In this document: piece after piece, positions 6,257-27,552 of the stretch
Numbering within the stretch: position 1 is the stretch's first letter
Layout of the letters: the number at the start of each line of letters is the position of its first letter
Source of the DNA: Acetobacter suratthaniensis
Lineage (GTDB): Bacteria; Pseudomonadota; Alphaproteobacteria; Acetobacterales; Acetobacteraceae
Length of the DNA: 64,000 bases
Direction: 5' to 3'
Assembly: GCF_017377745.1 (NCBI RefSeq)
Contig: NZ_JAFVMG010000014.1
Coordinates: 1 to 64,000, forward strand
Notes under the pieces: generated by a model
Told to the model about the DNA's origin: nothing
Databases searched by the model: none
Seen by the model: the letters and a program-made list of their open reading frames with translations, nothing else
Position numbers and translations under genes: made by a program

Positions 6257-7342
6257 TTAGCGTTTCTGGAGCGGGTTGCCATCAGCGTCCAGAATGGGCC
6301 ATGTGTTTTCTGCCTCTGCATTCAGAAGAGCTTTACGAGAAAAATCGGTATCAATCATGGTCGAAATATCGATATCGTGTGAAATGAGATGTGAGGCGCG
6401 CGCAAACTGCGCCACATCGCGGTAGTGCTGCGTGATGAAATCATCAAAAACCGGCGACAATACCCCCCGGATATCTTTGCCTTTCCATGATTCCTCGCGC
6501 AACTCGAGGGGCAGGTTCTGTGTTGCTGCGGCAATTCTCAGATATTGATCACGATTTTCTGGCCGGGCGTAGAAAGTAGAGCCAGAAATCAGGGCTGTCA
6601 CGATAGCCTGAATAAGATCAGGATCTTGCTGAATGATCGCATTACTGGCGAATAATCCGGTACCGAACTTCCATGACAACGGCGCTTGCGCTGTAGACCA
6701 CAGAATACGGGCAGCACCACGTGCCTGAAGAGCCAGCCCATTCAGGGTCACCTGCCCATCGACGTGATGGCCAGCAACTGCGGCATCACCTTCGGGCATG
6801 ACAAGGTTAACGATCTGGAAATCCGAGAGCTTCAGCCCGGATTGACGCAACAACCGGGAGAACGCAAGTGTCCATGGGCGCCCCAGATTGACCGCTAGCC
6901 GCTTACCTTTCAGATCCTGCACGGTTTTGGCCGGGGAATCTGTAGGCACAACCAAATAGGATTCCAGCGCCCCACGGGTCAGTGGCAGGATCAGTCGAAT
7001 ATCAATACCAGCGGCCCGCGCAATCACGGCCGGAAAGTCTCCGTAGAGCGCCAGATCAATCTGGCCCGATGCGAATGCTTCGTTAATATCCGGGCCAGCA
7101 TTAACAAAATAACGCCATTCCACCCGGGCTTGATGGGCTGCCAGAGCGGCATTCAACGCCGAGAACGTTGCTGCCCCCAGCATACCTTCAGCCTCTACTG
7201 GCCGCCCGGCCTCATCAAATGCGCGAGGCACACCCACCCGCACAATGCGCTCCGCAGCCAGCGCGGGCCTTACAGCCAACGCTGAGCCGGCCACTGCAAG
7301 AAAGCCTCGGCGAGATAAAGCCGCATTCATCAAACGCTTCAT
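6257..7342 (-). CDS. Tat-exported SsuA-like ABC substrate-binding protein
   Basis: A 361-residue periplasmic-binding protein of the sulfonate/nitrate/taurine (SsuA/NMT1) family. The N-terminus carries a twin-arginine signal (SRRGFLAV, then AVRPALA-AE), indicating folded export to the periplasm. Family features include INEAFASGQIDLALYGDFP and DLKGKRLAVNLGRPW. Its start overlaps the stop of the upstream desulfinase-like gene (ATGA), implying translational coupling. It resembles the anchored binding protein at 22316-23425 (shared INEAFA and GRPW positions), so the two are paralogues. It most likely delivers an organosulfur compound to the permeases encoded divergently at 8542-11002. Confidence 0.85.
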   Translation of the reverse strand: MKRLMNAALSRRGFLAVAGSALAVRPALAAERIVRVGVPRAFDEAGRPVEAEGMLGAATFSALNAALAAHQARVEWRYFVNAGPDINEAFASGQIDLALYGDFPAVIARAAGIDIRLILPLTRGALESYLVVPTDSPAKTVQDLKGKRLAVNLGRPWTLAFSRLLRQSGLKLSDFQIVNLVMPEGDAAVAGHHVDGQVTLNGLALQARGAARILWSTAQAPLSWKFGTGLFASNAIIQQDPDLIQAIVTALISGSTFYARPENRDQYLRIAAATQNLPLELREESWKGKDIRGVLSPVFDDFITQHYRDVAQFARASHLISHDIDISTMIDTDFSRKALLNAEAENTWPILDADGNPLQKR

Positions 7343-8388
7343 GGCTGCTCCACCTCATGAAGTTTGCGCGCCAGTGCCAGTGGCACAGGGTCAATCCATT
7401 CTTCGACTGAAAAATCCCCGGCTAAAAATCCATGACCCAGCAGAAACTCTTTCTGTGCCGTCAATGCCGCAATCCGCTCAACATCCAGCGTAATGCCCAA
7501 GCTCCACGGCAAACGTGCGCCATAGGCACGCTCCACATCCTGTGGCGTGGTGCTGGTTTCCGCAGCAACAATCCGAAAAACGTCCTGCGCATGCGCTTCT
7601 GCCCATTCGGAAGCCCGCAGCAGCACTGACAGGTAGCGTGCAACCAGTTGCGGATGCTGCGAAGCAAAAGCCCGATCAACCGTTACCGGTCGGGGGGTAC
7701 CATTATTGATTCGCAACGCCGGGTCTAGATAGGTGTTCAGATCAGCAACCACGATCAGGGAATAAGCTTCCCTCAGGGCAATCGCTGGCGCGCCCTTGAT
7801 GTAGGCCACATCAATTTCACCAGCCAGAAGGGCATCAAACGTCGGGTCACGCCATGGCCGGTCAGGGTCCGCACGGCGGAACTCGACGGCTGGGGCATCA
7901 ATGTCAACAATTTCCACATCATCCAGCGTCAAACCACCAACCTGCAGGGCTGACGCAAAGCCATGCAACGCCATTGCCCTTACAAAATCGATTGTTTCAC
8001 CCGGACGCCGTGTCAGGCCGAGTTTTTTCCCCTTCAGGTCCTGCTCGTTCCGTATGCCGGACTGAGGGCGTGCTAGCAGAAACTGAGCCTCGTCCACCCA
8101 TGTCAGCCCGACAACCACCGTGCTTTCGCCACGGGCGCGCGCCCAGATAGCCGGAATATTACCGCCCTCACGGAACAGGCCAAACCCCTGATGGTTAAAA
8201 TGTGATGCGCGACGGGTCGGATCTTCATGGTCGCGGATCGAAACCAGATCAATATCCTGGGCCTGAAACGCATCGTTTAGCCAGCCATGATCAAGGGCGA
8301 TCCCCGTTGCCGTTGGCACAGGGCAGCGCGTGTACCAGATCGTATCAACCGTTGCGGCCTTTGTTACTGCTGAACTGCTGGTGGACAT
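7339..8388 (-). CDS. DszB-like sulfinate desulfinase candidate (copy 1)
   Basis: The 349-residue protein has the binding-protein fold and would usually be labelled an ABC substrate-binding protein, but it has no signal peptide and opens with WYTRCPVPTATG, matching the active-site region of 2-(2-hydroxyphenyl)benzenesulfinate desulfinase DszB. Cys22, His63 (ASHF) and Arg73 (FREGGNIP) correspond to DszB Cys27, His60 and Arg70, with the same 10-residue His-Arg spacing. DszB hydrolyses an aryl sulfinate to release sulfite, so a cytoplasmic C-S cleaving role is inferred. The start at 8388 has AGAGG 6 nt upstream; a GTG at 8418 is less likely. It overlaps the downstream binding-protein gene by ATGA and is divergent from an importer operon. 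The substrate is unknown. Confidence 0.72.
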   Translation of the reverse strand: MSTSSSAVTKAATVDTIWYTRCPVPTATGIALDHGWLNDAFQAQDIDLVSIRDHEDPTRRASHFNHQGFGLFREGGNIPAIWARARGESTVVVGLTWVDEAQFLLARPQSGIRNEQDLKGKKLGLTRRPGETIDFVRAMALHGFASALQVGGLTLDDVEIVDIDAPAVEFRRADPDRPWRDPTFDALLAGEIDVAYIKGAPAIALREAYSLIVVADLNTYLDPALRINNGTPRPVTVDRAFASQHPQLVARYLSVLLRASEWAEAHAQDVFRIVAAETSTTPQDVERAYGARLPWSLGITLDVERIAALTAQKEFLLGHGFLAGDFSVEEWIDPVPLALARKLHEVEQP

Positions 8389-8504
8389 GACATACCTCTT
8401 TCGCAGTTGCGATCTCACGATCAGGAGGAATTTCCATCATTAATTACGAGATATTTTTTTATATATTGTTAGATTGGAGTCAAGGATTTATATACATTCA
8501 TATT

Positions 8505-8524
8505 GTGTTTTAATATAAAAACAC
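8505..8524. promoter_or_regulatory. Inverted repeat in divergent promoter, candidate operator
   Basis: GTGTTTT (8505-8511) and AAAACAC (8518-8524) form a perfect dyad with a 6-bp spacer in the AT-rich gap between the desulfinase-like gene and the divergent permease operon. GTGTTTT(A/T) also occurs upstream of the second importer operon (25891-25898) and of the ArsR-linked divergent gap (27049-27056). This suggests, but does not prove, a common regulator of the cluster. Confidence 0.4.
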
Positions 8525-8541
8525 TTTCTTCAATCGGTGAA

Positions 8542-9333
8542 ATGGGAAGGATTCGTCAGGCCATGCTCTTCAGTCTTAAATTCGTGGCCAGAAAAACCGG
8601 CCCCATAGCCCTGACCCTGATCGCCTTTCTATCCCTATGGCAAATTCTTTGCTGGAGCGGTTCATTTCCCAGAACGCTGCTCATTCCTCCCGCTGATGTC
8701 GCGCGCACCCTCCTTGACCTGACGCGCGACGGCACACTGGAGGATAATCTACTAGCCTCCGCCCGCCGTGTTTTTCTTGCTTTAGCCATTGGCGGCAGTG
8801 CCGGAATTGTTTTTGGTCTGTTCTGTGGAACCTCAAAAACACTCTGGCGGCAGATTGGCCCTCTTTTTACGGCGCTACGGCAGATCCCGTTTATTGCACT
8901 TGGCCCTCTGCTTATTCTGGGGCTGGGTATTGGTGAGCATTTTATCGTAACACTCCTTGCTCTAGCGGCTTTTTTTCCTGTTGCTCTGGCAACACTCGAA
9001 GGCGCTCGCGGGGTGCCCACCCGCTATCTGGAAGTGGTTGCGATCTACCGACTGAACCCAACCGATCGTTTCCGTTACTTGTTTTTACCATCTGTCCTGC
9101 CCGCTATTGCGGCTGGCGCACGGATTGCCTTTGGCCGCTGCTGGGGGTTGGTCGTGGCGGCGGAACTGTTCGGCGCAACCTCGGGTCTGGGTCAGATGAT
9201 GAGCTGGGCACGAGAGATGTTTCAGATCGACGTCGTCATGGCGGGCGCTGTTATTGCTGCCGCAATCGGGATTATTTGCGATGCCCTGCTTCGCGCAGGG
9301 GCACGCCGCCTGATGCCGTGGGGCGCTACGTGA
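8542..9333 (+). CDS. SsuC/TauC-like ABC permease (importer 1, subunit A)
   Basis: A 263-residue inner-membrane permease of the BPD_transp_1 family with about six transmembrane helices. The cytoplasmic EAA loop that contacts the ATPase is visible as EGARGVPTRYLEVV followed by LFLPSVLPAIAAGAR. It probably forms a heterodimeric pore with the next gene, whose start overlaps this stop (TGATG at 9331-9335). The start is uncertain: ATG at 8542 or 8563, neither with an ideal Shine-Dalgarno; an upstream TTG at 8503 would overlap the candidate operator and is disfavoured. It is the first gene of a three-gene importer operon divergent from a desulfinase-like gene. Confidence 0.85.
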   Translation: MGRIRQAMLFSLKFVARKTGPIALTLIAFLSLWQILCWSGSFPRTLLIPPADVARTLLDLTRDGTLEDNLLASARRVFLALAIGGSAGIVFGLFCGTSKTLWRQIGPLFTALRQIPFIALGPLLILGLGIGEHFIVTLLALAAFFPVALATLEGARGVPTRYLEVVAIYRLNPTDRFRYLFLPSVLPAIAAGARIAFGRCWGLVVAAELFGATSGLGQMMSWAREMFQIDVVMAGAVIAAAIGIICDALLRAGARRLMPWGAT

Positions 9334-10133
9334 TGCTAGCGCGCCCTCCCCTAACCCGACGACTGCTTCACAGCCTGAGCAACAGTGGATTACTGCTCCC
9401 GATCGGGCTGATTGTAATCTGGCAGGCCGCTGACCGCGCGACCCCACGCTTCTTACCCAATCCGGCCGACCTGATCCATGTTACTATCGGTCTGTCCGCA
9501 CACGGCCTTCTCGCCCAGGATCTGCTGGCGTCCGTGGTGCGTATGTTATGTGGTTTTGCTGCTGGTGCGACGGGCGGAGCCATCATCGGTATCGCACTTG
9601 CCGCCTCGCCCCGCCTGCACACTCTGCTGGGGCCGGCAGTCTCGGCGTGGCGGCAACTGCCGATCTTCAGCCTTGTGCCTTTACTGACCCTATGGTTCGG
9701 GCTGGATGAAAAAGCCAAGATCATCCTTATCGCCTTAGCCACATCAATACCGGTCATGCTCAATGCATATGAAGGTGTGCGCGCTGTGCCAAAAAAATAT
9801 ACCGAAGTCGCGGACATGCTGCACCTCAACCCGCTCTCTCGCCTGTTGCTTCTTCAAGCCCCCGCTGCCATGCCGTTCCTGCTCACCGGGTTGCGTCAGG
9901 GCATGGCCTTTGCCTGGATGGCGACAGTCGCTTCAGAACTGTTTCTGGCAGCAGCGCCCGGCCTGGGTGCCGTCATTATGGCGGGTCAGGAGCGGATGCG
10001 CCCGGATATGATCATTATCGGAATTTCCCTCATCGGGGGCGTAGGCATTCTCATGAACGCCGCGCTGACAGGCGCCATACGCTGGGTATTACCCGCCTGG
10101 CGTGCGACTGACCAACAGGATAACCTCTCATGA
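9333..10133 (+). CDS. SsuC/TauC-like ABC permease (importer 1, subunit B)
   Basis: A 266-residue permease related to, but clearly different from, the preceding one. The EAA loop reads EGVRAVPKKYTEVADML, followed by LLQAPAAMPFLLTGLR. ATG at 9333 overlaps the previous stop by one base, and its own stop overlaps the ATPase start (ATGA at 10130-10133), so all three proteins are translationally coupled and probably made in equal amounts. Most SsuABC or TauABC importers use a single permease gene as a homodimer; two distinct genes suggest a heterodimeric channel. Confidence 0.88.
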   Translation: MLARPPLTRRLLHSLSNSGLLLPIGLIVIWQAADRATPRFLPNPADLIHVTIGLSAHGLLAQDLLASVVRMLCGFAAGATGGAIIGIALAASPRLHTLLGPAVSAWRQLPIFSLVPLLTLWFGLDEKAKIILIALATSIPVMLNAYEGVRAVPKKYTEVADMLHLNPLSRLLLLQAPAAMPFLLTGLRQGMAFAWMATVASELFLAAAPGLGAVIMAGQERMRPDMIIIGISLIGGVGILMNAALTGAIRWVLPAWRATDQQDNLS

Positions 10134-11002
10134 TAGCTTCTTCGATAAAACTGGCACCTGCAAGCGCTCTCCATTTAGTGCAAGGGGCTCAGCAAGGCCG
10201 AGGACAAGCTGTCCGGCTGGTAGATGTCGGCAAGACATACACGATCTCAGGGCGGGCATTACCGGTACTGCGTGACATTTCGCTGAATATCAATGCGGGT
10301 CGCTTTGTTACTATTGTCGGCGCCAGCGGGTGCGGAAAATCAACAATTCTTCGTATTATAGCCGGACTTGAAAAGGATTTTACCGGTTCAGTTCGCATTG
10401 GAGAGCAGGCGGTTAACGGCCCTTCTTTCGATTGCGGACTGGTTTTTCAGGATCACCGCCTATTCCCCTGGCTGACCGTGCGCCAGAATGTCGCCATGGC
10501 CCTGCGCGCGCGCAAACTGCCGACCGAACAACGCAATGCGCTGGTTTCCGCACACCTTGATCTGGTGCGCCTGAATGGCTTTGAAGATGCCTACCCGCAC
10601 CAGCTCTCCGGTGGCATGGCCCAGCGGGCAGCCATTGCACGCGGTTTGGTGAATGAGCCTTCCGTTCTGCTACTGGATGAACCACTAGGCGCAGTCGACG
10701 CGTTAACACGGCTCCATCTGCAACGCGAACTCCAGCGTATCTGGATGACTAAGGGCACAACCATGATCATGGTAACCCATGACATCGAAGAAGCTCTGCT
10801 TTTGGGTGATCAGGTCGTCATTCTCCAGCCCAGACCGGGGCCAGCACAGCAGATTATTGATGTAAACCTGCCGCATCCGCGCTCGGGCGATGAAAACACC
10901 CTACTCGCCCTACGCAAAAAAATTTTCGCAACACTCCATGTCGGAGATGAAGACGAAACAAAAACTGGCGGCGGCTCTACAGCTACCCGCCAGCCGCCGT
11001 AA
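10130..11002 (+). CDS. SsuB-like ABC importer ATPase (importer 1)
   Basis: The 290-residue ATP-binding subunit has Walker A GASGCGKST (64-72), Q-loop region GLVFQDHRLFPWLT, signature [15 protein letters not shown], Walker B VLLLDEP and switch His in MVTHDIEEAL. This is the nitrate/sulfonate/taurine ATPase group. It powers the two preceding permeases. The C-terminal 25 residues are hydrophilic and Thr/Gly-rich and look unstructured. The operon ends at a hairpin at 11062-11092. Confidence 0.92.
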   Translation: MIASSIKLAPASALHLVQGAQQGRGQAVRLVDVGKTYTISGRALPVLRDISLNINAGRFVTIVGASGCGKSTILRIIAGLEKDFTGSVRIGEQAVNGPSFDCGLVFQDHRLFPWLTVRQNVAMALRARKLPTEQRNALVSAHLDLVRLNGFEDAYPHQLSGGMAQRAAIARGLVNEPSVLLLDEPLGAVDALTRLHLQRELQRIWMTKGTTMIMVTHDIEEALLLGDQVVILQPRPGPAQQIIDVNLPHPRSGDENTLLALRKKIFATLHVGDEDETKTGGGSTATRQPP

Positions 11003-11061
11003 TCAGGCATGGCGCTGGCCAGAATAAAGCCCCCTGCCCCGCGCCACCTAACATTCCAGCT

Positions 11062-11096: not shown

Positions 11097-12335
11097 TTAT
11101 TCAATGTCGCAATGTGGCTGGATTGCCTTTCCTGCCAGCACCGCCTGAACGAAGCGCAGTGAATCTGGCTGCGAGGCATTTAACGTATCGCTATGTCCGA
11201 GATCGTGATACGCGTGCGCCTCGATTACACTGCCAGCAGCACAGGCATCGGTTGCCAGTTGTTTTTGCGCGATAAACAACCCATCCTTGCCTCCAGCCCC
11301 AATGAACACTGGCCGTTCAAAATGCACGGTCGGCAGTTTTAAAGCTTCGTGCCACCAGCTTTTCAGTCGGGCCTGCCCTTCAGGTTTCAGAGCAGCCGCA
11401 GGGCTGAGTTGCGTCTCTACGGCATCCCCTTCCAGAGAATCAAGGCAATAGATCCGCGCCTGCTTGAAGAGCGGGAGCGCTTCAGGCGTAAAAATCTCTT
11501 CCGCCCGAATTGTCGGATCAGTCTGCTGCGCCGCCAACACAGAATAATATTGATACGCCACAGTCGGATCAGGCTTCGAGGACAAAGGCTTGCCATCCAA
11601 CACGTGATCATGCCCTTCGGGGGCGTAAATGGTTCCGGTGGCAACAGTCGCCAGCCAGTTCACATCTGGTGCATACCCCGGTGCGTAACCGGATGCCGCC
11701 ACTACAGCGGAACCACCTTGTGACTGACCGACAAAAACCACACGGTTAGCCAGCTTTGCCGCATGCAGGCTTAACGCTGCACGCACGCTATCTATCAGCG
11801 CATAGGCATTGGCCCGATTGTTCAGTGCAGGGTTAGGCCCGGGGCCGCCCAGCCCCTGATAATCCGTTGCCACCACTGCGAAACCATTCTTCAACCAGCT
11901 TTGCAAAAAGCGCACATCCCGATAGGAACGTCCATGCCATGATGGCGCACAAATGTCAGCCATGCCAAACGTACCATGCGCCCAGGCAATCACAGGCCAG
12001 CCGCCTTCCGGCGGGGTTCCGGCAGGGACAAACAAAGCGCCAGACACGGCAACAGGCTTTTTGCCTCCCACCCCATCGGTGGACGCATAGAGAATGCGGT
12101 ACTGAGCACCTGTACCTTCCAACCCCAGAACATCAGGCAGAGGCTCGCTCCGTAACAACCGGCCCGGATGCTGCGGCACGCTACCGTTCCACGTATAAAA
12201 AGGCGAGGTTCTACCGTCACCCTGCAAGGGGTCCCCTAAAGGTGCTGCTGCCTGCACCGGCGACACAAGAGCAAAAAGCGCCAGAGCTGGCAGGGCTGTC
12301 CTGCCGATCCCATGGAACATCGTTTTCGTAAACAT
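11097..12335 (-). CDS. Secreted alpha/beta hydrolase, lipase-like
   Basis: A 412-residue exported hydrolase. After a signal peptide (hydrophobic ALPALALFALVSPVQA, cleavage before APLG) comes an alpha/beta hydrolase core with oxyanion region WAHGTFGMADICAP, nucleophile motif GQSQGG, and a late His in YHDLGHSDT. The layout resembles secretory lipases of the LIP type. The ATG at 12335 has GGAGG 5 nt upstream and is preferred to an in-frame TTG at 12347. It begins 17 bp after the TonB receptor gene on the same strand, so it may release a transported ligand from an ester in the periplasm; that is inference. Confidence 0.78.
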   Translation of the reverse strand: MFTKTMFHGIGRTALPALALFALVSPVQAAAPLGDPLQGDGRTSPFYTWNGSVPQHPGRLLRSEPLPDVLGLEGTGAQYRILYASTDGVGGKKPVAVSGALFVPAGTPPEGGWPVIAWAHGTFGMADICAPSWHGRSYRDVRFLQSWLKNGFAVVATDYQGLGGPGPNPALNNRANAYALIDSVRAALSLHAAKLANRVVFVGQSQGGSAVVAASGYAPGYAPDVNWLATVATGTIYAPEGHDHVLDGKPLSSKPDPTVAYQYYSVLAAQQTDPTIRAEEIFTPEALPLFKQARIYCLDSLEGDAVETQLSPAAALKPEGQARLKSWWHEALKLPTVHFERPVFIGAGGKDGLFIAQKQLATDACAAGSVIEAHAYHDLGHSDTLNASQPDSLRFVQAVLAGKAIQPHCDIE

Positions 12336-12352
12336 GACGTCCTCCAAAATTG

Positions 12353-14725
12353 TCAGAAGGTTTTTGATACGTTCAGGCCAATCATGCGCGGCGGCATTGT
12401 CACCACGGTTTCCAGAGAGCTGGAAATGGGTGAAGAGGCAGTGGTGATCGCCCGCTGATCGGTAAGGTTGTTAACAACAGTATAAACATCCCAATCATGG
12501 GCGCGCACACCCACCCGCGCGTTGAAGACAACGTAATCTCCAATCTGCCAGTAACTGGTGGCACCGGGATGAAATGCGGAAAAGGATTTGGAAACATAGT
12601 TTCCATCAACATGCACAATTCCGGTCAGAGTGCGGGACAATGGGTGATGGTAGTCCAAAGCCAGTGTCAGCGTGCCATCAGGAATATTGGGAATGCGGTC
12701 TCCCGTATGGCCTGTCGAAACCGATGGCACCGAACCATTTGCAATCTGGTCGGCTGTCAGTTTTGCGCTCTGGATCATGCCGTTAAAAGACAAATCAAGT
12801 TCGTTGGTCAGCCGGGCCGTGATTTCAGCTTCGATACCCTGAATCCGCGCGGCCCCCGCATTGCCCAGATAAGCATAGGTCGGGGTCTGGAGACTGACCT
12901 GCATATTGCTCCAGTCGGTGCGATAGGCCGCCAGATTGGTTGTGAGACGACGGTTCAGGAACGAGCCTTTAAAGCCAACTTCGTAGGTTCTGAGCATATC
13001 CGGCAGATAAGGGGCCGCCGTAGCCAGACCGATACCCTGATTGACCCCACCCGGCCTGAAACCTGTGGAAACCTGAAAATAGGCCAGTATCTGATCGGTA
13101 AACTGATAGGCCAGATTGACCTTATACAGAAAACCCGCGTTCTCACTTCCCCAGCTTTTGTTCGCACTGGGGTAAGTACCCAATTGTGGCAGACCTACCG
13201 AAGTAGCGCCGGAAACTGTCTTGCTGTAATGGTAATAACGCATGCCCGCCGTCAGGCTTAGCTTGCGGATCGGGTTGTAGGTTGCTTCGGCAAACAGGGC
13301 CTGCTGCTGAAGAATATCCCCAATGGTTCGTGACAGGCCAATTGTTGGCGATGCGGGGTCAATACCATTCGGTGTCAGGATATGTGCCTGAGACAAAATT
13401 CCCGACCGTCTGTTTTCCAGATAACCACCGACAGTCCATGTCAACGGGCTACGTTTGGTAGACTGGAAACGGAATTCGTTAGTGACATCCTCCAGAGATT
13501 GGGGCTGATAATATAGGGCCGGATTGGGATAATAGGCATGTACAACGTTAAACAGATAACTTGCATCGCGGGTCTGTAAAAGGTTGCGGTTCTGATAACT
13601 GGCCACATGGGTAAAACGCACCCACTGCCCCATATCGATATGGGTTGTCAGGCTATAGACAGACAGCCGATCATTAAACCCAAGGCGCGCCTTATCGCGG
13701 CTATTGTACAGCCCTGCCGATGGAAACCACCATGACGGGCCACCATCTTGTGATGACTGGCTGGTGGCGAAATCAATACTGATAAAGCGACGGGGCGTAA
13801 AACGCAGGAGAAACCGTCCCCCTTCAGAATGTACTTCGTTAACACCCTGCGTGCCAAGCGCTGGATTGTTTATCCAACCATCCATGGAAGAGCGGTAATA
13901 GACAAACCGAGCTGCCAGCACGTCCTTGATCAGCGGCACATTAAGCATCGCATTGACATTATAGGTCGCACCGCCGTGGAACACCCCGCCACCCTGCCCG
14001 TCTATTGCTGCGGCATAACGGGTTGAATCCGGCTTGTTGAAAATCAGCTTGATCGCCCCTCCCATGGCACCGGCCCCGTAAAGTGTGCCTTGTGGTCCAC
14101 GCAGCACCTCAACACGTTGCAGATCGAACAGATGAAAATCTGAACTGCTCCCTGCAGGATTACTGGTCGACCCCGGCGGTGCCGCTAAAGCGGTTTCATC
14201 GTAATAAATTCCGACCTGTGAATCTCCAGCACTACGAATGCCACGTAGAGAAACCTGATTCTGCCCTGGGCCCGCATTGGTTACGACCAGTCCAGGCACC
14301 AGTTTTGCCAGATCCGCCAGATCATGAACATTGGCATTACGCAGCTTTGCCTGAGACAGAGCTGTTATGGCAACGGGTGTTTTCTGAATTGATGTTTCGC
14401 GTTTAAGAGCGGTTACGGTCACTTCCTCTGCCGCTTGGGAAACTTTAGGCTTGGTCTTGTCTATCGTATCGGCAAGCGCCATGCCATGCCCCATAAGGGA
14501 AACACCCGCATAGATGAGAGAGCCAGCATATAGTCGCTTGAATCCTGCCACCTCTGTGCGTCTGGCATTGGATTGCCAGAACCGCCTTGTGTCGGGTACG
14601 AATGCCACCGCCTGCGCCATATGCCCAGGTACCGACCGAACACAGGTGGTGATCACATCGAAAGCAAAATCAATCAGAATAAACCTTTTATAATGATATT
14701 GCGGATACATCTTTCGCACCGTCAT
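12353..14725 (-). CDS. TonB-dependent outer-membrane receptor (copy 1 of the cluster)
   Basis: A receptor of about 790 residues. The plug domain starts at EEVTVTALKRETSIQKTPVAI and contains LRGIRSAG and VEVLRGPQGTLYGAGAMGGAI; the barrel ends in LNVSKTF with the terminal Phe expected of outer-membrane barrels. It would take up a ligand across the outer membrane using TonB energy. The start is uncertain: ATG at 14725 has GAGGA before it; 14794 overlaps a 7-bp dyad; ATG at 14620 would give a more ordinary leader ending in GMALA. It lies between the aldolase-like and secreted hydrolase genes in the sulfur cluster. Confidence 0.88.
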   Translation of the reverse strand: MTVRKMYPQYHYKRFILIDFAFDVITTCVRSVPGHMAQAVAFVPDTRRFWQSNARRTEVAGFKRLYAGSLIYAGVSLMGHGMALADTIDKTKPKVSQAAEEVTVTALKRETSIQKTPVAITALSQAKLRNANVHDLADLAKLVPGLVVTNAGPGQNQVSLRGIRSAGDSQVGIYYDETALAAPPGSTSNPAGSSSDFHLFDLQRVEVLRGPQGTLYGAGAMGGAIKLIFNKPDSTRYAAAIDGQGGGVFHGGATYNVNAMLNVPLIKDVLAARFVYYRSSMDGWINNPALGTQGVNEVHSEGGRFLLRFTPRRFISIDFATSQSSQDGGPSWWFPSAGLYNSRDKARLGFNDRLSVYSLTTHIDMGQWVRFTHVASYQNRNLLQTRDASYLFNVVHAYYPNPALYYQPQSLEDVTNEFRFQSTKRSPLTWTVGGYLENRRSGILSQAHILTPNGIDPASPTIGLSRTIGDILQQQALFAEATYNPIRKLSLTAGMRYYHYSKTVSGATSVGLPQLGTYPSANKSWGSENAGFLYKVNLAYQFTDQILAYFQVSTGFRPGGVNQGIGLATAAPYLPDMLRTYEVGFKGSFLNRRLTTNLAAYRTDWSNMQVSLQTPTYAYLGNAGAARIQGIEAEITARLTNELDLSFNGMIQSAKLTADQIANGSVPSVSTGHTGDRIPNIPDGTLTLALDYHHPLSRTLTGIVHVDGNYVSKSFSAFHPGATSYWQIGDYVVFNARVGVRAHDWDVYTVVNNLTDQRAITTASSPISSSLETVVTMPPRMIGLNVSKTF

Positions 14726-14788
14726 TTTTTCCTCGTGAGAACGTTCTGACTGCTGGATGACACGCGGCCAATCCGATACGAAAAGGTG

Positions 14789-14806
14789 CTTCATCTACCG
14801 ATGAAG
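14789..14806. promoter_or_regulatory. Hairpin CTTCATC-TACC-GATGAAG upstream of TonB receptor
   Basis: A perfect 7-bp inverted repeat with a 4-nt loop. If translation of the receptor started at 14794 this hairpin would cover the start codon; otherwise it lies in its 5' leader. Function unproven. Confidence 0.35.
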
Positions 14807-20368: not shown

Positions 20369-20399
20369 TTTTCCTCTCAGCCCAGATTAAGCGGGACCA

Positions 20400-20414
20400 G
20401 TGCTTCGCAAGCAC
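20400..20414. promoter_or_regulatory. Small hairpin upstream of TonB receptor gene
   Basis: GTGCTT-CGC-AAGCAC, a 6-bp stem with a 3-nt loop, lies 32 bp upstream of the receptor start in a 205-bp gap. It may belong to the 5' leader or end the upstream ABC-exporter transcript. The rest of the gap is AT-rich and could hold a promoter. Confidence 0.3.
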
Positions 20415-20573
20415 ACCGAAGATTTGCGAATCAACGATATTAATTGCGCCTTAAGATAAATTACATTTTTAAAGCTACATTCGGACACGCAAGAGTCAAC
20501 ATAATGTTTTATTTTTTTATATACAGTTTAAATGAGTGTAATTTAGCCACACTTTTCCATCCACAGAATGGCC

Positions 20574-22319
20574 TTACAGAACGCTCTGTAAGGCATGTAG
20601 GCGGGCATATACGCCATGCGGCTGGGCAATCAGGCTGCCATGATCACCACTCTCAACAATCTTGCCGCGGTTCATCACAAGAATGCGGTTGGCGTTACGG
20701 ATTGTTCCCAACCGGTGGGCCACTATCAACGCCATACGGCCTGCCATCAGATGCGATAACCCATCCTGAACCTTGCGTTCCGATTCACTATCCAGAGCAC
20801 TGGTCGCTTCATCCAGAATGACAAGCCCCGGGTCACGGAGCACAGCGCGTGCAATAGCAATACGCTGTCTTTCACCGCCCGATAGATGCACACCCCGCTC
20901 ACCCGCGACCGTTGCATAACCCTCGGGTAACAGTCGGATAAAGTCGTCAGCATGGGCAATCCGCGCAGCGCTCTCTATGTCTGCTTCACTGGCCTTCGGG
21001 TTACACCAGCCAATATTCCGCGCGATGGTATCGTTAAACAGCGCCACATCCTGCAACACGACACCAAAAGCAGCCCGCACAGAAGCCTGAGTATAGGTAC
21101 GAATATCCTGACCGTTAATCAGAATACGTCCCTGCTGCGGGTCATAAAAGCGTAGCAGAAGCCGGATAATGGTTGATTTACCCGAACCACTCGCCCCGAC
21201 TAACGCAACATGCTCACCTGCCGTGATCTCGAAGGAAATATCTTCCAGAGTATTGTGCGCTTTATCAGGATACCGGAAATAGACGCCGCAAAATGCAATA
21301 GAGCGAATATACGTGAGTTCCGCAGCATCCGGTCTGTCTGTCACAGTCGGGCGCTCATCTAAAAGAGCCACCAGACGCTCTGCTGCGGTATCCACTTCGG
21401 CAGTCGTGTTAATCAATCGCCCTATTGGCTGCAAAGAAACAATCATGGCCTGCGTCAGTGTCAGAACCAGCAGAATATCACCCGGGCTATATCGCCCCTG
21501 TAGGGCGCCATACGTCACCCAACCGACAGTGCTGACACTCCCCACCGCGTTGATCAGGTTAATAACAACCCCCGACTTCTGCTCTACCCCCTGCTCAACC
21601 TCACGCACGGCCCACCAGTGGCGCTGTACGGCATTAAAACGGCTCATTATCCCCGTCTCGCCCGCCATGCTCCGCACAGTAGTAATCTGTGACACCATCT
21701 CCCCAAGAAGACCGGCCATAACACCAATCAAGCGATGCCATTCACGTTTGTACGAGCGGGTTTTCCCGGCCTCAGCCACAGAAAGATACAGGTTAAGCGG
21801 CACAATCAGCGCCATGATCAGCCCGACCAGTGGAGCCTTAAACAACAGTAGAACGGTACCAAACAGCAACTGCAGAATGGCGGATAGTGTACCCTCGCTC
21901 AACTGGAACAACCACATGGTAATTGTGGTGACTGTACCAAAACGATCCATGATATCGCCTGCGCGCGTACGACCGTAAAAGTCGATCGACAGACTGGTCA
22001 TACTGTCAAAAACCCGCTGCCGTAGAGTGGAAATGGTATTGCGCCACAATGCATCAGATGCCTGTTCCAGCCAGGCTGATACCCCCACGAGTGCCAACCG
22101 GAGCGCGAGAAAGCCGAGAACAGCTATCGCAGCATCACGCGCTGCCTGCGTGGGCCCGATCCGCATAGCGGAAAAATCTGCAAGAATATTAACAATATGG
22201 CGGAAAATGAAGGGCGCAATGGCACCGCCCAGACCGATTACAGCACTGGTAAACAGAATAACAACGGCACGAAACCGATATTCCGGTATCAGGGTAATGA
22301 TACGATAGATATTCCTCAT
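20574..22319 (-). CDS. ABC exporter half-transporter (fused membrane and ATPase domains)
   Basis: A 581-residue type IV ABC exporter: membrane domain with six hydrophobic helices over the first 310 residues, then an ATPase with LVGASGSGKSTIIRLLLRFYDP, signature LSGGERQRIAIARAVL and LVILDEATSALDSESE. It would act as a homodimer moving a substrate out of the cytoplasm. Its ATG overlaps the stop of the binding-protein gene upstream (ATGA at 22316-22319), so it is part of the importer operon, which is unusual. It could expel a toxic desulfurised product; that is only a guess. Substrate cannot be read from sequence. Confidence 0.85.
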   Translation of the reverse strand: MRNIYRIITLIPEYRFRAVVILFTSAVIGLGGAIAPFIFRHIVNILADFSAMRIGPTQAARDAAIAVLGFLALRLALVGVSAWLEQASDALWRNTISTLRQRVFDSMTSLSIDFYGRTRAGDIMDRFGTVTTITMWLFQLSEGTLSAILQLLFGTVLLLFKAPLVGLIMALIVPLNLYLSVAEAGKTRSYKREWHRLIGVMAGLLGEMVSQITTVRSMAGETGIMSRFNAVQRHWWAVREVEQGVEQKSGVVINLINAVGSVSTVGWVTYGALQGRYSPGDILLVLTLTQAMIVSLQPIGRLINTTAEVDTAAERLVALLDERPTVTDRPDAAELTYIRSIAFCGVYFRYPDKAHNTLEDISFEITAGEHVALVGASGSGKSTIIRLLLRFYDPQQGRILINGQDIRTYTQASVRAAFGVVLQDVALFNDTIARNIGWCNPKASEADIESAARIAHADDFIRLLPEGYATVAGERGVHLSGGERQRIAIARAVLRDPGLVILDEATSALDSESERKVQDGLSHLMAGRMALIVAHRLGTIRNANRILVMNRGKIVESGDHGSLIAQPHGVYARLHALQSVL

Positions 22320-23425
22320 TTGCGTGGCGCATCCCCTGCGCCACTCTGCGCCGCGCTGGCTGTCCAGTAGCCCTCCAGCCCCAGCGTTGTCATGGCTTTT
22401 GCCTCCGGCTCCGGGTCAAGCAACTGATGAATATCAATGTCGTTCGCGATAATATTCTTGGCACGTGCATACCGTGCAGCATCATCAAAATGGGCAATAA
22501 CAGCATCAGAAAATAGCGGCGACCAGCGATCATGCCAGTTCAGAGCTGGATCTTCATACTGCCGCTCCAGTATGGTGGCAGCTGTTCCATTGCGCATACC
22601 CAGCTCAATAAAGGCTTGCCGATGTGCGTCTTCCGATGCCCATCGGGCGGCTGCGACATAAGCGGTCACAACCAATTGAGTAATATCCGGATGGGTCTCT
22701 ATAAAACCACGATCCCCCCAGAAACCACCCAACGTATGCCAGCTCAGGGGCTTTCCCTTCGTAGACCAGATAACTTTCGCAATACCTTTATCGACCAGTT
22801 CGTAAGGGCTGATCGTAACCAGACCATCTACCGCACCCGCAGTAAGAGCCGCCGCCCCGGCATCCGGATTGATGTTAAAAAGCTGGAAATCAGCATAGCT
22901 CAATCCTTCCTGATCCAGCAGGTGCAACAGCGGAATTTCCCACGGTCGCCCTCTGTGAATGGCCAGTTTCCGACCTTTCAGGTCATTGATCGAACGTATT
23001 TCTGAGCTGGCGGGAACCAGCACATAAGCATCGCCCGGCCCCCACGGTAGGAGCAGACGGGTACGAACACCGGCCGCTGTACCGTTAAGGATCAATGCTG
23101 GCAATTCACCATAAGAAGCAAACTCAATGGCATGATTGGCAAAGGCCTCGTTAATTACAGGGCCAACAGCAGCATTGGGCGCTGGCACCCATTCCAGTTT
23201 GTATCCCCGTTTGGCCAGTTCAGACTTCAGCCAGCCCTGAGTTTCAACAACGTAATCAAGCCCTGCCCGCTGAGGTTTGCCCTGAACAAATGCTGTCACA
23301 GTCGCTATTCGTATTGTTTGGGCCTGATGTGTCACATGCCAGCCCCAGCCGGCCAGAACCACGGCAATAAGCAGCACACCACCCAGAGCCACGCGCACGT
23401 GGGTAGAAAGGGTTACCATATCCAT
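22316..23425 (-). CDS. Membrane-anchored SsuA-like substrate-binding protein
   Basis: A 369-residue binding protein of the sulfonate/nitrate family with an N-terminal hydrophobic segment (VALGGVLLIAVVLAGWGW) that looks like a signal anchor, without a clear cleavage site. Family motifs INEAFANHAIEFASYGELP and DLKGRKLAIHRGRPWE match the Tat-exported protein at 6257-7342. It should present ligand to the permeases encoded upstream in the same operon (24263-25878) and is coupled by ATGA overlap to the exporter gene. Confidence 0.85.
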   Translation of the reverse strand: MDMVTLSTHVRVALGGVLLIAVVLAGWGWHVTHQAQTIRIATVTAFVQGKPQRAGLDYVVETQGWLKSELAKRGYKLEWVPAPNAAVGPVINEAFANHAIEFASYGELPALILNGTAAGVRTRLLLPWGPGDAYVLVPASSEIRSINDLKGRKLAIHRGRPWEIPLLHLLDQEGLSYADFQLFNINPDAGAAALTAGAVDGLVTISPYELVDKGIAKVIWSTKGKPLSWHTLGGFWGDRGFIETHPDITQLVVTAYVAAARWASEDAHRQAFIELGMRNGTAATILERQYEDPALNWHDRWSPLFSDAVIAHFDDAARYARAKNIIANDIDIHQLLDPEPEAKAMTTLGLEGYWTASAAQSGAGDAPRK

Positions 23426-23439
23426 ATCTCCAGAAAAGC

Positions 23440-24240
23440 TTAGTCACCAACAAGGTCGGTCAGTATTGTTTCTTTGATACGTTGGACGGCGGGATCTGCC
23501 GGATCACGCGGATGGCTTAATGGCACCGGCACAATCCGGTGTATCCGCCCCGGCGCGGCGTCCATCACCACGATCCGGTCGGAAAGAAACACCGCCTCCT
23601 CCACATCATGGGTTACAAGAATCATCGTGCTACGCTGACGTAGCCAGATATGCTGTAACTCTCTTTGCAAGTAGGTGCGGGTTAGTGCATCCAGAGCGCC
23701 AAACGGTTCGTCCAGCAAAAGCAGTTCAGGCTCATTCACGAGCGCTCGGGCAATTGCGCCACGCTGCGCCATGCCACCCGATAGTTGGCGAGGCCACGCA
23801 TCGCCGAATTCCGTCAGCCTCACCAAATCAATCGCGTCCGTCACGCGGCGGGTTTTTTCCACATCGCTCAGATCAGCACGCCCCTGCAATGCAAAGGCGA
23901 TGTTGGAGCGCAGCGTCATCCATGGAAACAGGGATGAATCCTGAAAAACCATGCCACAATCAAGACTAGTGCCAATGATTGGCACATCATCAAGCCACAT
24001 ATCCCCCGCATGATCTCGATCCAGACCGGAAATCAGGCGCAGAAGCGTAGATTTTCCACACCCACTCCGCCCAACAATACTCACGAACTCGCCTGCTGCG
24101 ATGTCTAGATCAATCCCGACCAGAACGGGCAATGTCCGACCGCCGATCTGATAGGATTTAGTCAACCCGCGCAGCCGAACCTTCCCCCGGACTGAGCGTG
24201 CGGGAGCATCTGAACTCTCAATCAGATTAGAAATATTCAT
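23440..24240 (-). CDS. SsuB-like ABC importer ATPase (importer 2)
   Basis: A 266-residue ATPase with Walker [10 protein letters not shown] (57-65), signature [15 protein letters not shown], Walker B LLLLDEP and [11 protein letters not shown]. It belongs to the nitrate/sulfonate/taurine group and is paralogous to the protein at 10130-11002. It lies 22 bp after the permease gene and 14 bp before the binding-protein gene, in one operon with both. Confidence 0.92.
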
Positions 24241-24262
24241 GAAAAATCTGATCCTGTCATAT

Positions 24263-25045
24263 TTAGCGCACGTTACGCCATTTCAGGGTCAATCTGGCGG
24301 TCAATACCACCAGAGCATCGATGAGGTAGCCGAGCACTCCAATCACCAACACGCAGAACAGCACTATGTTGGTATGAAATGCGGCCTGCGCATTCGCCAT
24401 CATGGCCCCCAGCCCTGCTGCGGGACTGAAAAGCAGTTCAGCTCCAATCGTGCTGATCCACACGAAAACCACTGCCTGCATGAAACCGGTAAAAATGGCA
24501 GGCATTGCAGATGGCAAAACAACATCTCGTAAACGCGGCCAACCACTGACGCCATAAATCTCCGCTACAGCCAGATAACGAGGGTCAGTCTGTCTTACGC
24601 CGCCATGACTGGCGATAGCCATTGGATAAAAAGCCGCCAACGACACGACCAGAAGTTTGGCGCTTTCACCATTGCCGAACCATAGGCTGACCAATGGCAC
24701 CAACCCGATAACAGGTACCTGCCGCACCGCACTGAAAACAGGGCCAATCAGTCGTTCTGCCGAGCGGGAAAGCCCCAGAAGGCACCCTAGTGCAACGCCG
24801 CTTACAGTTCCGATGAACAGCCCTGCTCCCGCACGCGCCAGAGAGGCTATGATGCTCTCTGGCAGTTCGCCGCTACGCATTGTTGCCGCCGCCCCCGCCA
24901 GAATGTCGCTGACAGGCACGAAGATATAGCGCCCTGTTACCCCATGATGTGAAAGCCAAACCCAGACCAGCAGTAACAAAGCAGGCAGCACCGTACCGCG
25001 CACATGCCAGATAGATGGCCACAAGGGGGCAAAACGCGCCTTCAC
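24263..25045 (-). CDS. SsuC-like ABC permease (importer 2, subunit B)
   Basis: A 260-residue permease with about six transmembrane helices and the EAA loop GGVRQTDPRYLAVAEIYG followed by VVLPSAMPAIFTGF. It overlaps the preceding permease gene by ATGA (25042-25045), implying a heterodimeric channel as in importer 1. Early residues WPSIWHVRGTVLPALLLLVW form the first membrane span. Confidence 0.88.
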   Translation of the reverse strand: MKARFAPLWPSIWHVRGTVLPALLLLVWVWLSHHGVTGRYIFVPVSDILAGAAATMRSGELPESIIASLARAGAGLFIGTVSGVALGCLLGLSRSAERLIGPVFSAVRQVPVIGLVPLVSLWFGNGESAKLLVVSLAAFYPMAIASHGGVRQTDPRYLAVAEIYGVSGWPRLRDVVLPSAMPAIFTGFMQAVVFVWISTIGAELLFSPAAGLGAMMANAQAAFHTNIVLFCVLVIGVLGYLIDALVVLTARLTLKWRNVR

Positions 25046-25878
25046 GCCAGATGTCCATAACGCAGGATGGTTTGTTCAAGCAGACGGATCAGGCGATCCA
25101 GCACGAAGCCAATCACCCCGACCAGAACAACACCCCCCAAAACAATATCAACCCGAAAGACCTGCCGCCCCCATTCGAGCATTTGGCCGATCCCCTTATC
25201 GGAAATCATGAGCTCCACAGCCACCAGCACCATCCACGCTCTGGCTAGGGCAATCCGTAAGCCTGTCATGATTGACGGCACCGAAGCTGGAAAAATAACA
25301 TTGCACAGCAACCGAAAGCCCCGCACCTCGTACAGTGCAGCCACATCGCGCCATGTGCCACGAATACCCGCAACACCTTCCAGAGTAGCCAGAGCAACCG
25401 TCAGCGTTACAACTTTGGCGACGAGAATGATCTCTACCAGTTGGCCAATACCAAAAAACAGAATGAACACAGGAATGAGCGCCAATGACGGCACCTGTCG
25501 CGCGAACTGGAACAACGGGTAAAAATAGGCTTTGAGCGTAAGGGACAAACCCATTGCAGCCCCCAAGGCCAGCCCGACGAGAACCCCAAGAGCATAACCG
25601 GCGAACAACCGCCCAAGGCTGCTCCCAACCTGCTGCGCCAATTCGCCGCTGGCTGCCTCAGCTATCAGCGTATTCAGAACAACCAGAGGAGGCACCAGAA
25701 TGTCACGAGGGAACAAACCACTGGCACTCAAAAGCGCCCATATACCAAGCAGGATCATAACCGGTAGCAAAGTAGATAGGACAGCTTGCCCATTAATGCA
25801 GGTGCCAAGTTGGAGTAACGGCCTCGGCCATTTTCGCATGCCCACGACGATACCGCTCCCTTTCGCTTTCCCTGCCAT
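25042..25878 (-). CDS. SsuC-like ABC permease (importer 2, subunit A)
   Basis: A 278-residue permease with EAA loop EGVAGIRGTWRDVAALYE followed by VIFPASVPSIMTGLR and six predicted membrane helices. It is the first gene of the minus-strand operon 25878-20574 (permease, permease, ATPase, binding protein, exporter). No convincing Shine-Dalgarno is visible at 25878; a GTGTTTTATA element begins only 12 bp upstream and could mask the promoter or ribosome site. Confidence 0.86.
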   Translation of the reverse strand: MAGKAKGSGIVVGMRKWPRPLLQLGTCINGQAVLSTLLPVMILLGIWALLSASGLFPRDILVPPLVVLNTLIAEAASGELAQQVGSSLGRLFAGYALGVLVGLALGAAMGLSLTLKAYFYPLFQFARQVPSLALIPVFILFFGIGQLVEIILVAKVVTLTVALATLEGVAGIRGTWRDVAALYEVRGFRLLCNVIFPASVPSIMTGLRIALARAWMVLVAVELMISDKGIGQMLEWGRQVFRVDIVLGGVVLVGVIGFVLDRLIRLLEQTILRYGHLA

Positions 25879-26134
25879 TAGTATTTAACTGTGTTTTATA
25901 GTTGTTTTGTTATTTCACGATTCGTGACTCATATAGTAAGCGCAGAATTTACGCTATATAATTTTATATCTCTTTTTTGTGGTGGAATTGGCGCATACCA
26001 AAAGCATGCCCGGCCCCTGACGATGCTCTGGCACGCACAGACGCTCCGCCCCCTTCAGAAAAGGGCCGGAAGCGCGCAATATAAAGATGAGAAAAAGGTA
26101 AAGCCTGCCAACCGAAAGCGGTTTGACAGTGCGT
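25879..26134. promoter_or_regulatory. AT-rich promoter region of importer 2 operon
   Basis: This 256-bp gap should hold the promoter of the minus-strand operon starting at 25878. GTGTTTTATA at 25891-25900 resembles one half of the dyad at 8505-8524. An 87-codon frame on the plus strand (25891-26154) shows no recognisable domain or Shine-Dalgarno and overlaps the opposite gene's end, so it is not called. Confidence 0.4.
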
Positions 26135-27013
26135 TTATTCCATCAAGTCAATAGACCGTTCGAGCACACCATGACGGAACAGTATGTCCGCCTCATCCTG
26201 CAACTCGCGCAGGATTGTCGTATTGATATGATGAATGCTCCAATCGCGTGCCAGAATGGCCCGCTGCCAGCTCTTTCTTAACACGCTCCCAGCCGCATCA
26301 GCCGCCAGAATATACGAAGCCCGCGCAACATCTTGCGGAACTTCACGACCAAGCCGTTCCAGACCATCAAAAAAACTAGCCCGCGCATACGCGCTTAACT
26401 GTCTTTCTCCCAACGTCCAGAATATAGACCGATTGGGAATCAGCGCTTCGGAACCTTCCAGTAAGCGCATATTGCCTATTGTCATGGCATAGTCCTGATA
26501 GGGAGCGAGCGTCACTAACGCATCGATACTCCCCTGTTGCAGAACAGCCAGACCTGCACCGGGCATGACGTCACAGATGGTTATGTCATCCAAGCTCAGG
26601 CCGGCTTTTTCAAGCGCCTGCACCAGAAGGTAAATCTGGAATGACTTCTGGGCCAGACCAATTTTACGGCCGACCAGATCCTGTAATGACCAGACAGGAG
26701 AATCCGCACGTACGACGATAGAACCATCCAGCCTGCGCGGCGCTGATGCAGCAAGCAGGATAACATCCAGCCCCTTGGCCGCGGCAAACAGCGGTTGAGG
26801 GGAACTGGTTCCGCACACATCAATCTGACCAAGACTCAAGACGTCAGCACTCTGACTGCCCCCATCATAGCGTACAAACTCAACATCAAGACTGTCGAAC
26901 TGCATGTCCCATGCCGCGGCAAGAGTCAGATGCAGATTGGCTGGATGAACGCCAATACGCAGCGGGGAGCGTTCATGCTTACAGGGCGGCTGAGGCGAGG
27001 CGGAAATGGTCAT
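26135..27013 (-). CDS. SsuA/NMT1-like binding-fold protein without signal peptide
   Basis: A 292-residue protein of the NMT1/THI5-like or SsuA fold: LRIGVHPANLHL, DLVGRKIGLAQKSFQIYLLVQ, QQGSIDALVTLAPYQDY. Unlike the two other binding proteins it has no signal peptide or anchor, and it also lacks the CPVPTA motif of the desulfinase-like proteins. It may be a cytoplasmic sensor, an enzyme of unknown chemistry, or a binding protein with a missed upstream start. It is divergent from the ArsR-type regulator, separated by 140 bp, and precedes the importer 2 operon on the same strand. Confidence 0.7.
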   Translation of the reverse strand: MTISASPQPPCKHERSPLRIGVHPANLHLTLAAAWDMQFDSLDVEFVRYDGGSQSADVLSLGQIDVCGTSSPQPLFAAAKGLDVILLAASAPRRLDGSIVVRADSPVWSLQDLVGRKIGLAQKSFQIYLLVQALEKAGLSLDDITICDVMPGAGLAVLQQGSIDALVTLAPYQDYAMTIGNMRLLEGSEALIPNRSIFWTLGERQLSAYARASFFDGLERLGREVPQDVARASYILAADAAGSVLRKSWQRAILARDWSIHHINTTILRELQDEADILFRHGVLERSIDLME

Positions 27014-27153
27014 TTGATCGTTATATCATGTTATATATTTTTTCCATCGTGTTTTTACCCACTCGCGTACGCATGCAACGGTTGCGCCCGACAGCCCAAT
27101 AAGGCTAGCCTTGGTAGTATCAGACAGTAGCGGATGCAAGGAAAAGCCAGACC
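27014..27153. promoter_or_regulatory. Divergent promoter of the ArsR gene and binding-protein gene
   Basis: The gap contains a direct repeat GTTATAT (27020-27026 and 27030-27036), an element GTGTTTTTA (27049-27057), the palindrome GCGTACGC and GCAAC-G-GTTGC. ArsR-family operators are often AT-rich dyads near the -10 region, so the GTTATAT repeats are the most likely regulator site. Not verified. Confidence 0.4.
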
Positions 27154-27552
27154 ATGACGAATGTCGAAGGCTGTAGACAGACAGATGATGTCGTTGAACT
27201 GCTTAAACAACTCGCCAATGCCAATAGACTTGCCATCATCAGCAGCCTGCTGGAAGGGCCGCGCTCTGTCACCGAGCTAGAGCTCGTTCTATCAATCCGC
27301 CAGCCCACCCTGTCGCAGCAGATCACCTCCCTGCGGGAAGCGGGAATTATCGAAGGGCATCGGGAAGGCCGTCATATAATCTATTCATTGGTAGATGAAC
27401 GTACCACGACCGTTATGCGTTTTCTGGCCAATATTTACCCAGATATGATTCCAGAGCAGGTAAGAATACTCCCTCCGTTTGGCTATATTGACTGCGCAAA
27501 GCTACCGGACATGATTGTTAATATGCGCCTTTCCATGCAGGACGCATCCTAA
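27154..27552 (+). CDS. ArsR/SmtB-fold transcriptional regulator
   Basis: A 132-residue winged-helix repressor. The DNA-binding core (about 12-82) includes LANANRLAIISSLLEGPRSVTEL, RQPTLSQQITSLREAGII and HREGRHIIYSL. The metal-binding CxC of arsenic or zinc sensors is absent. Two Cys occur at 7 and 114, flanking the core; persulfide-sensing members of this family (BigR, SqrR, YgaV) also use a pair of Cys, though at different positions. It is divergent from the cluster's 3' boundary and is the only regulator next to it, so control of sulfur-compound uptake is inferred. Confidence 0.85.
   Translation: MTNVEGCRQTDDVVELLKQLANANRLAIISSLLEGPRSVTELELVLSIRQPTLSQQITSLREAGIIEGHREGRHIIYSLVDERTTTVMRFLANIYPDMIPEQVRILPPFGYIDCAKLPDMIVNMRLSMQDAS

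Follow-up and report, generated by a model that had tools for sequence, protein, structure and literature searches.

A probable composite organosulfur-scavenging locus in Acetobacter suratthaniensis

What might Acetobacter suratthaniensis do with two proteins resembling the desulfinase DszB, encoded in one cluster with TonB-dependent receptors, ATP-binding cassette (ABC) importers, a flavin mononucleotide (FMN)-dependent monooxygenase, and a class-II-aldolase-fold protein with an altered metal site (AldII)? The cluster lies at positions 6257 to 27552 of the window, a 64-kb stretch of DNA that forms the start of a 77.4-kb contig (NZ_JAFVMG010000014.1) in a genome of 3.09 Mb. Gene content was determined from gene calls and from Pfam and NCBIfam family scans, and signal peptides were judged by eye. 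The original prediction had described organosulfur uptake and desulfurization; every part that it named was found within the cluster (Table 1), although its exporter is one half-transporter. We consider it probable that this is a composite sulfur-scavenging locus, in which TonB/ABC import would be followed by flavin-dependent oxygenation to a sulfinate and DszB-type release of sulfite.

DszB-family proteins and their conserved neighborhood

Among solved structures, DszB (2DE2) is the top sequence match of both DszB1 (E = 9e-14) and DszB2 (E = 3e-16), and in an alignment to DszB both proteins keep the positions of Cys27, His60, and Arg70, which we take to be its catalytic residues. An AlphaFold model of DszB2 (pLDDT 88) finds DszB (2de3/2de2) as its best PDB match, ahead of SsuA and Thi5, at an identity of only ∼23 to 27%. 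In a family alignment of 35 rows (33 of the 38 nonredundant DszB-family rows from the 57 loci described below, plus the two window proteins), 30 rows have the Cys, 31 the His, and all 35 the Arg. Position 27 is Ser in four of the remaining rows and Gly in one, and thus altered DszB paralogs exist. The Ser-bearing paralogs are found in L032 (209-1276), L059 (36-1091), L066 (2436-3491), and L025 (7470-8564); that of L032 adjoins a Cys-bearing paralog and is perhaps its inactive partner.

DszB matches at E ≤ 1e-20 were found in 6 of 299 genomes drawn from the family, own genome included, and in none of seven other congeners drawn. A locus from another genus of the family (L013, 5655-12783) encodes a TonB receptor, a 358-amino-acid protein, a DszB-like protein, a major facilitator superfamily (MFS) transporter, and a protein similar to DszC/SfnB that scores 224 bits with DszC (cut-off 850); L014 and L015 have a TonB receptor and a DszB-like gene with the same spacing.

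To which genes, then, are DszB-family genes linked elsewhere? A single DszB2 scan of genome contigs yielded 57 loci, mostly from Pseudomonas, in which gene presence was assessed by tblastn and coding-score gene calls. DszB2 homologs reach at least 50% identity in 54 loci, of which 48 have AldII (≥40%) no more than 10 kb away and 39 have it next to DszB2 on the same strand; one of the six loci without AldII, L024, ends soon after DszB2. None of 25 control genes, taken from the window beyond 31 kb, matches any of the 57 loci at ≥40%, and one does so in one locus at ≥35%. Since AldII is matched in 48 of the same 57 loci, the clustering is above chance. Of the 57 loci, 50 have SsuD-like or SfnB-like genes (queries from related loci, ≥35%; a count without a random-region control); in NCBIfam scans, the examples chosen rank as SsuD-like and SfnB/DszC-like without reaching the curated cut-offs. 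Sigma-54 regulators were found in 12 loci with queries of the same kind and threshold, and exporter-fold transporters in 36 (Methylophilus queries, ≥35%); the window's own MsbA-like protein is matched at ≥35% in three.

Because most of these loci are from Pseudomonas, the spread over genera is a better guide than the number of loci. DszB2 is matched at ≥45% in Pseudomonas, Sphingomonas, Sphingobium, Novosphingobium, Methylophilus, Methyloversatilis, Herbaspirillum, Paucimonas, and Asticcacaulis; AldII was not found in the Herbaspirillum locus. On the plasmid of Sphingobium TomTYG65, the order is a TonB receptor, two SsuD genes, a nitroreductase, SsuB-C-C-A, a DszB-like gene, a Fis-family regulator, DszB2, AldII, a DszA-like gene, a DszB-like gene, two ABC transporters, and then a TonB receptor and an arylsulfatase; the DszA-like and DszB-like genes are annotated as "monooxygenases." In Pseudomonas L033, two DszB genes, an SsuD-like gene, two exporter halves, and an SfnB-like gene (395 bits, cut-off 431) are divergent from DszB2-AldII, and Methylophilus L023 has a sigma-54 regulator, AldII, DszB2, SBP2, an ATPase, TonB, ExbB, permeases, and two exporter halves. 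In a reverse query of 398 genomes sampled from the phylum, AldII was found in five, one of them the own genome; in all four others it stands beside SsuD-like, two DszB-like, SBP2-like, importer, and TonB receptor genes. The conserved core is DszB2-AldII with some oxygenase of the SsuD, SfnB, or DszA type, and the importers and receptors vary. A lack of conserved clustering in relatives had been named in advance as grounds for abandoning the prediction; the core instead recurs in several genera with SsuD-like, SfnB-like, and sigma-54 genes.

No near relative emerged among known plasmids: a megablast search of PLSDB gave one 47-base match only. Likewise, we found no description of the DszB/AldII/TonB gene set in the literature searched, which leaves out most subscription journals and is weak evidence of absence.

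Two evolutionary sources and the cluster edges

Forty-nine congener genomes were searched with queries other than AldII and DszB, namely, the DszA-family monooxygenase, the aarC flank, and the peroxiredoxin. The monooxygenase was found at ≥84% in three, own genome included; the orthologs in the other two (G307 and G339) are 84 to 87% identical. Both share SBP3, ArsR, DszB1, DszA, and AldII with the window at 55 to 87%, including the same divergent ArsR/SBP3 pair (ArsR, 72 to 73%; SBP3, 59 to 62% and without a signal peptide), and the G339 copy occupies the same AarC-FtrA site. G307 additionally shares SBP1 (61%) and ABC1 (ATPase, 66%). Orthologs of DszB2, SBP2, ABC2, and MsbA were not seen in the stretches fetched from these two genomes, that of G307 stopping at a contig end, and the TonB receptors of both show no close match to those of the window. 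The missing genes have relatives elsewhere: two Asticcacaulis loci (L019 and L062) carry an MsbA-like protein (50 to 51%, cut by the locus edge), AldII, SBP2 (48 to 49%), an ABC2 ATPase (60%), a TonB receptor, and DszB2 (60%), and L019 also has two SsuD-like genes.

Phylogenetic trees agree with this division. DszB1 groups with G307 and G339 (support 100/99), as does AldII (98/97), and DszB2 groups with Sphingobium L018 (96/85), the two falling within a set of five alphaproteobacterial rows (95/91). The "duplicated modules" of the original prediction were therefore not borne out: the two DszB lineages are distinct rather than tandem copies, and the G307 ATPase is 66% identical to that of ABC1 versus 51% to that of ABC2. 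The cluster is better explained as a merger of two modules, a congener-like set (module 1: DszB1, ABC1/SBP1, DszA, AldII, SBP3, and ArsR) and an Asticcacaulis-type set (module 2: DszB2, SBP2, ABC2, and MsbA), the placement of ABC2, SBP2, and MsbA being suggested by best matches, not trees.

Only importer ABC1 (8503-11002) and the ArsR regulator are on the plus strand; ArsR and SBP3 probably form a local control pair. AT-rich near-palindromes, possible ArsR operators, were seen by eye at 8419-8502, 20369-20573, and 27014-27153; inspection by eye did not establish a shared AT-rich operator. We rejected a role for SBP3 as a periplasmic binding protein, as no signal peptide was recognized by eye in any of three orthologs (window and two congeners) or in a Streptomyces homolog. 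A 32% SBP3 homolog in L017 does carry one.

At the other edge, a serine hydrolase and a 1-Cys peroxiredoxin may possibly be linked to the cluster. In Pseudomonas aeruginosa, sulfur starvation strongly induces the 1-Cys peroxiredoxin LsfA, according to PMC12581299. All six congener loci fetched keep the pair, and in four of them a TonB receptor gene is no more than 2 kb away. Extension of the cluster to position 4628 was nevertheless rejected: the congener loci with the pair lack DszB and AldII, and none of the 57 loci has the pair at ≥35%. Farther out, an ion-channel/TrkA_N protein (2866-4188) lies in an A+T-rich stretch (37% GC at 2001-4000 versus ∼54% in most of the window).

Table 1. Predicted features of the cluster and of its possible extension
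Feature	Position	Strand	Family or remark
Serine hydrolase paired with peroxiredoxin; possible member	4628..5338	-	PF06821
1-Cys peroxiredoxin, single Cys; possible member	5345..5986	-	PF00578+PF10417
SBP1, SsuA-family substrate-binding protein	6257..7342	-	PF09084; twin-arginine-like signal (by eye)
DszB1, DszB-family desulfinase-like	7339..8418, likely start ~8385	-	No signal peptide by eye
ABC1 permease a	8503..9333	+	PF00528; SsuC/TauC-like
ABC1 permease b	9276..10133	+	PF00528
ABC1 ATPase	10130..11002	+	PF00005
Secreted esterase, secretory lipase family	11097..12347	-	PF03583
TBDR1, TonB-dependent receptor	12353..14794	-	PF00593/PF07715
AldII, class-II-aldolase-fold, altered metal site	14904..15623	-	PF00596
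DszB2, DszB-family desulfinase-like	15667..16707	-	No signal peptide by eye
NtaA/DmoA/DszA-family FMN-dependent monooxygenase	16725..18083	-	TIGR03860
TBDR2, TonB-dependent receptor	18086..20368	-	PF00593/PF07715
MsbA-like half ABC transporter, exporter fold	20574..22319	-	PF00664+PF00005
SBP2, SsuA-family binding protein	22316..23425	-	N-terminal membrane segment (by eye)
ABC2 ATPase	23440..24240	-	PF00005
ABC2 permease a	24263..25045	-	PF00528
ABC2 permease b	25042..25878	-	PF00528
SBP3, SsuA-fold, probably cytoplasmic	26135..27013	-	PF09084; no signal peptide by eye
ArsR-family regulator, divergent from SBP3	27154..27552	+	PF01022

A proposed sulfur-scavenging route and its rivals

We infer the reactions, their order, the substrate, and the regulation from gene content and context. 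The TonB receptors would carry a scarce or bulky organosulfur compound over the outer membrane, and the secreted esterase may trim it; esterase homologs occur in related clusters of Burkholderia (L075, 58%) and Pseudomonas citri (L030, 49%), the latter being the only one of the 57 loci to have one. SsuA-type binding proteins and two SsuBC-type importers would bring the compound into the cytoplasm: SBP1 and SBP2 match SsuA (3uif; E = 5e-58 and 5e-88), and the ABC1 and ABC2 permeases resemble those of the SsuC/TauC/SaoP type. There, the FMNH2-dependent monooxygenase could convert a sulfone or sulfonyl intermediate to a sulfinate by opening a C-S bond, and DszB1 and DszB2 would then hydrolyze this sulfinate to sulfite. 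AldII may act on the same intermediate or on the desulfurized carbon fragment. The MsbA-like protein, which scores 386 bits in TIGR02203 (cut-off 602) and appears to be a related exporter-fold transporter, not MsbA itself, might export the sulfur-free residue or carry a hydrophobic ligand. Sulfite would be assimilated by a sulfite reductase of the genome, in which two frames contain NIR_SIR domains, one of 602 amino acids with two matches; these suit sulfite assimilation, but a nitrite reductase could be among them.

The monooxygenase passes the TIGR03860 model (514 bits versus a cut-off of 279.7), and its PDB matches comprise DszA (5tlc; E = 8e-82) and chains of the YtnJ/MoxC, nitrilotriacetate (NTA), and EDTA types. 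DszC was not found among the cluster genes scanned, and the 4S arrangement, with DszC, DszA, and DszB in one operon, is therefore lacking. The absence of DszC noted by the original prediction thus holds for the window; its corollary that the substrate is already a sulfone does not follow, as contig 12 of the genome carries a gene for a possible SfnB/DszC relative. This protein reaches 252 bits against SfnB (cut-off 430.9) and 167 bits against DszC. SfnB matches below the cut-off are common (9 of 14 control genomes), so the protein weakens the argument from DszC absence and is no proof of DszC. The genome also has a second organosulfur-like locus on contig 56 (L125, 7311-17650), with genes for a redoxin, an NMT1 binding protein, a permease, an ATPase, an acyl-CoA-dehydrogenase-fold protein, an NtaA-family monooxygenase, and a TonB receptor; the acyl-CoA-dehydrogenase-fold protein adjoins this monooxygenase, the second of its family in the genome.

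Several observations weigh against sulfur scavenging. The NtaA/DmoA family spans C-S and C-N enzymes, so membership does not imply sulfur chemistry and the sulfur role of the monooxygenase rests on context; nor does membership in the DszB family by itself confer activity, given the five rows that lack Cys27. Neither a flavin reductase nor a sigma-54 regulator was found among the cluster genes, PF01613 flavin reductase domains being present at three places elsewhere in the genome. With the SsuA model TIGR01728, SBP1 to SBP3 score 117, 104, and 107 bits, all below the cut-off of 163.5. Outside the core, most window genes find few matches at ≥40% among the 57 loci (DszA in 6, SBP2 in 10, the ABC2 ATPase in 14, and its permeases a and b in 5 and 9; SBP1 in 2 and the esterase in 1; TBDR1, TBDR2, MsbA, SBP3, and ArsR in none). 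Finally, in the stretch fetched from G339, module 1 lacks an ABC importer and is accompanied by GMC and aldehyde dehydrogenase genes, which would suit a carbon source too. In that locus (L101, 3930-8190), DszA, AldII, and a TonB-receptor-sized gene are followed by genes for a GMC oxidoreductase, an aldehyde dehydrogenase, and an MFS-like protein, a hint that the carbon residue may be used.

Could the cluster instead import and degrade a nutrient without sulfur, such as a pyrimidine, an aminopolycarboxylate, or a flavin-like compound, with NMT1/THI5-fold binding proteins, an NtaA-type monooxygenase acting on C-N bonds, and DszB-like proteins that merely bind ligands? The binding proteins do have NMT1/THI5 Pfam matches, and TIGR03860-type PDB chains include NTA, EDTA, and riboflavin enzymes besides DszA. 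We regard this as unlikely, however: the DszB catalytic residues are kept, the best match in sequence and fold is DszB rather than Thi5, and SsuD-like or SfnB-like genes accompany most of the related loci. Those genes also argue against siderophore or metallophore uptake and recycling, in which receptors, esterase, and exporter-fold transporter would handle a chelator. Both receptors have the siderophore-receptor model (TonB-siderophor) as their best match, below its cut-off, and the cluster does encode an MsbA-like protein as well as a secreted esterase; yet the importers resemble the SsuC/TauC/SaoP type, no siderophore biosynthesis gene was found among the cluster genes scanned, and the desulfinase-like and monooxygenase genes would be left unexplained, which makes this reading quite improbable.

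A further alternative, which overlaps with a composite scavenging locus, is that two independent organosulfur systems for different substrates lie side by side. Module 1 occurs without module 2 genes in the stretches from the two congeners, and module 2 genes match the Asticcacaulis loci best. But the window has AldII and DszA on either side of DszB2, and in sphingomonads DszB2-AldII-DszA-DszB1 form one run, which argues that the parts recombine into one unit; we therefore treat two separate systems as possible, if doubtful. Organosulfur uptake and desulfination remains the likeliest function, as originally proposed, on the strength of the DszB triad and of the association of DszB2-AldII with sulfur genes; the sequence of steps, however, cannot be deduced from gene order alone, as the original prediction had done.

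AldII and comparison with known systems

AldII is the most novel part of the cluster and a candidate for something newer. It scores above the PF00596 cut-off, and its model (pLDDT 90) has L-ribulose-5-phosphate 4-epimerase as the top fold match (Foldseek E = 5e-11 to 1jdi), with the nonheme iron oxygenases POD, TqaM, and NovR further down. Homologs in 17 rows are 35 to 68% identical. The HxH part of the metal site (HVH) is kept, and the third His (NHG in the AN-H-G motif) is replaced, giving NGG: this position is Gly in all 52 AldII rows, window included, and in six of six further homologs, so the three-His metal site of class II aldolases is not present. In POD, three His residues bind iron and are fully conserved, according to PMC11841055. 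The position aligned to the FucA catalytic Glu73 appears unconserved in the AldII rows, but the alignment is weak in this region; POD is a protein without this Glu (PMC11841055). Invariant in 18 AldII rows are His107, His109, Glu168, Asn170, Arg48, Arg132, Arg145, Glu192, and Glu193. Two His and one Glu may make up the metal site, the HxH pair and Glu168 (in E-A/S/G-N-G-G, nearby in the sequence) possibly forming a 2-His-1-carboxylate iron site. We tentatively suggest that AldII founds a new branch of the class II aldolase fold dedicated to organosulfur metabolism and that it catalyzes an as yet unrecognized step at a C-S or C-C bond, linked to desulfination of the DszB type.

To our knowledge, few TonB-linked systems that cleave C-S bonds have been described. 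The cluster resembles Rhodococcus dszABC (4S pathway, dibenzothiophene) in its DszA-family monooxygenase and its DszB-family proteins with a Cys-His-Arg triad but lacks DszC and adds TonB receptors, two ABC importers, AldII, an esterase, and an exporter. With ssu/sfn clusters (SsuD, SfnG, and SfnB), it shares an FMN-dependent monooxygenase and an SsuABC-like importer, but an NtaA/DszA-type enzyme, DszB proteins, and AldII take the place of SsuD. The AldII-DszB2 clusters of Sphingobium, Pseudomonas, Methylophilus, and Asticcacaulis, of which the papers searched gave no description, have DszB2 orthologs of 55 to 65% and the same importer and exporter types; those clusters add SsuD/SfnB-like oxygenases or sigma-54 regulators. 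The window instead contains ArsR and module 1, and it encodes TonB receptors and an exporter that bear no close similarity to those of the other clusters. The combination of a TonB receptor, an SsuA/SsuBC-like importer, and a sulfur-releasing enzyme is of a known kind, as in the ats/sft cluster of Pseudomonas strain UW4 (atsACBR-sftR-atsK-sftP), as described in PMC3596284. The enzymes of ats/sft are sulfatases acting on C-O-S esters; no sulfatase was found among the window's cluster genes, which encode a C-S-type monooxygenase/desulfinase set.

The organic share of soil sulfur can exceed 95%, according to PMC3596284 and PMC4267179. A modular cluster that recurs, combining two lineages of desulfinase-like proteins with a companion protein whose active site is altered, provides testable genes for an undescribed desulfurization route, and many Pseudomonas genomes carry its core. 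If our suggestion for AldII is true, this protein would define a sulfur-scavenging pathway common to Pseudomonas, sphingomonads, and the lineage of A. suratthaniensis.

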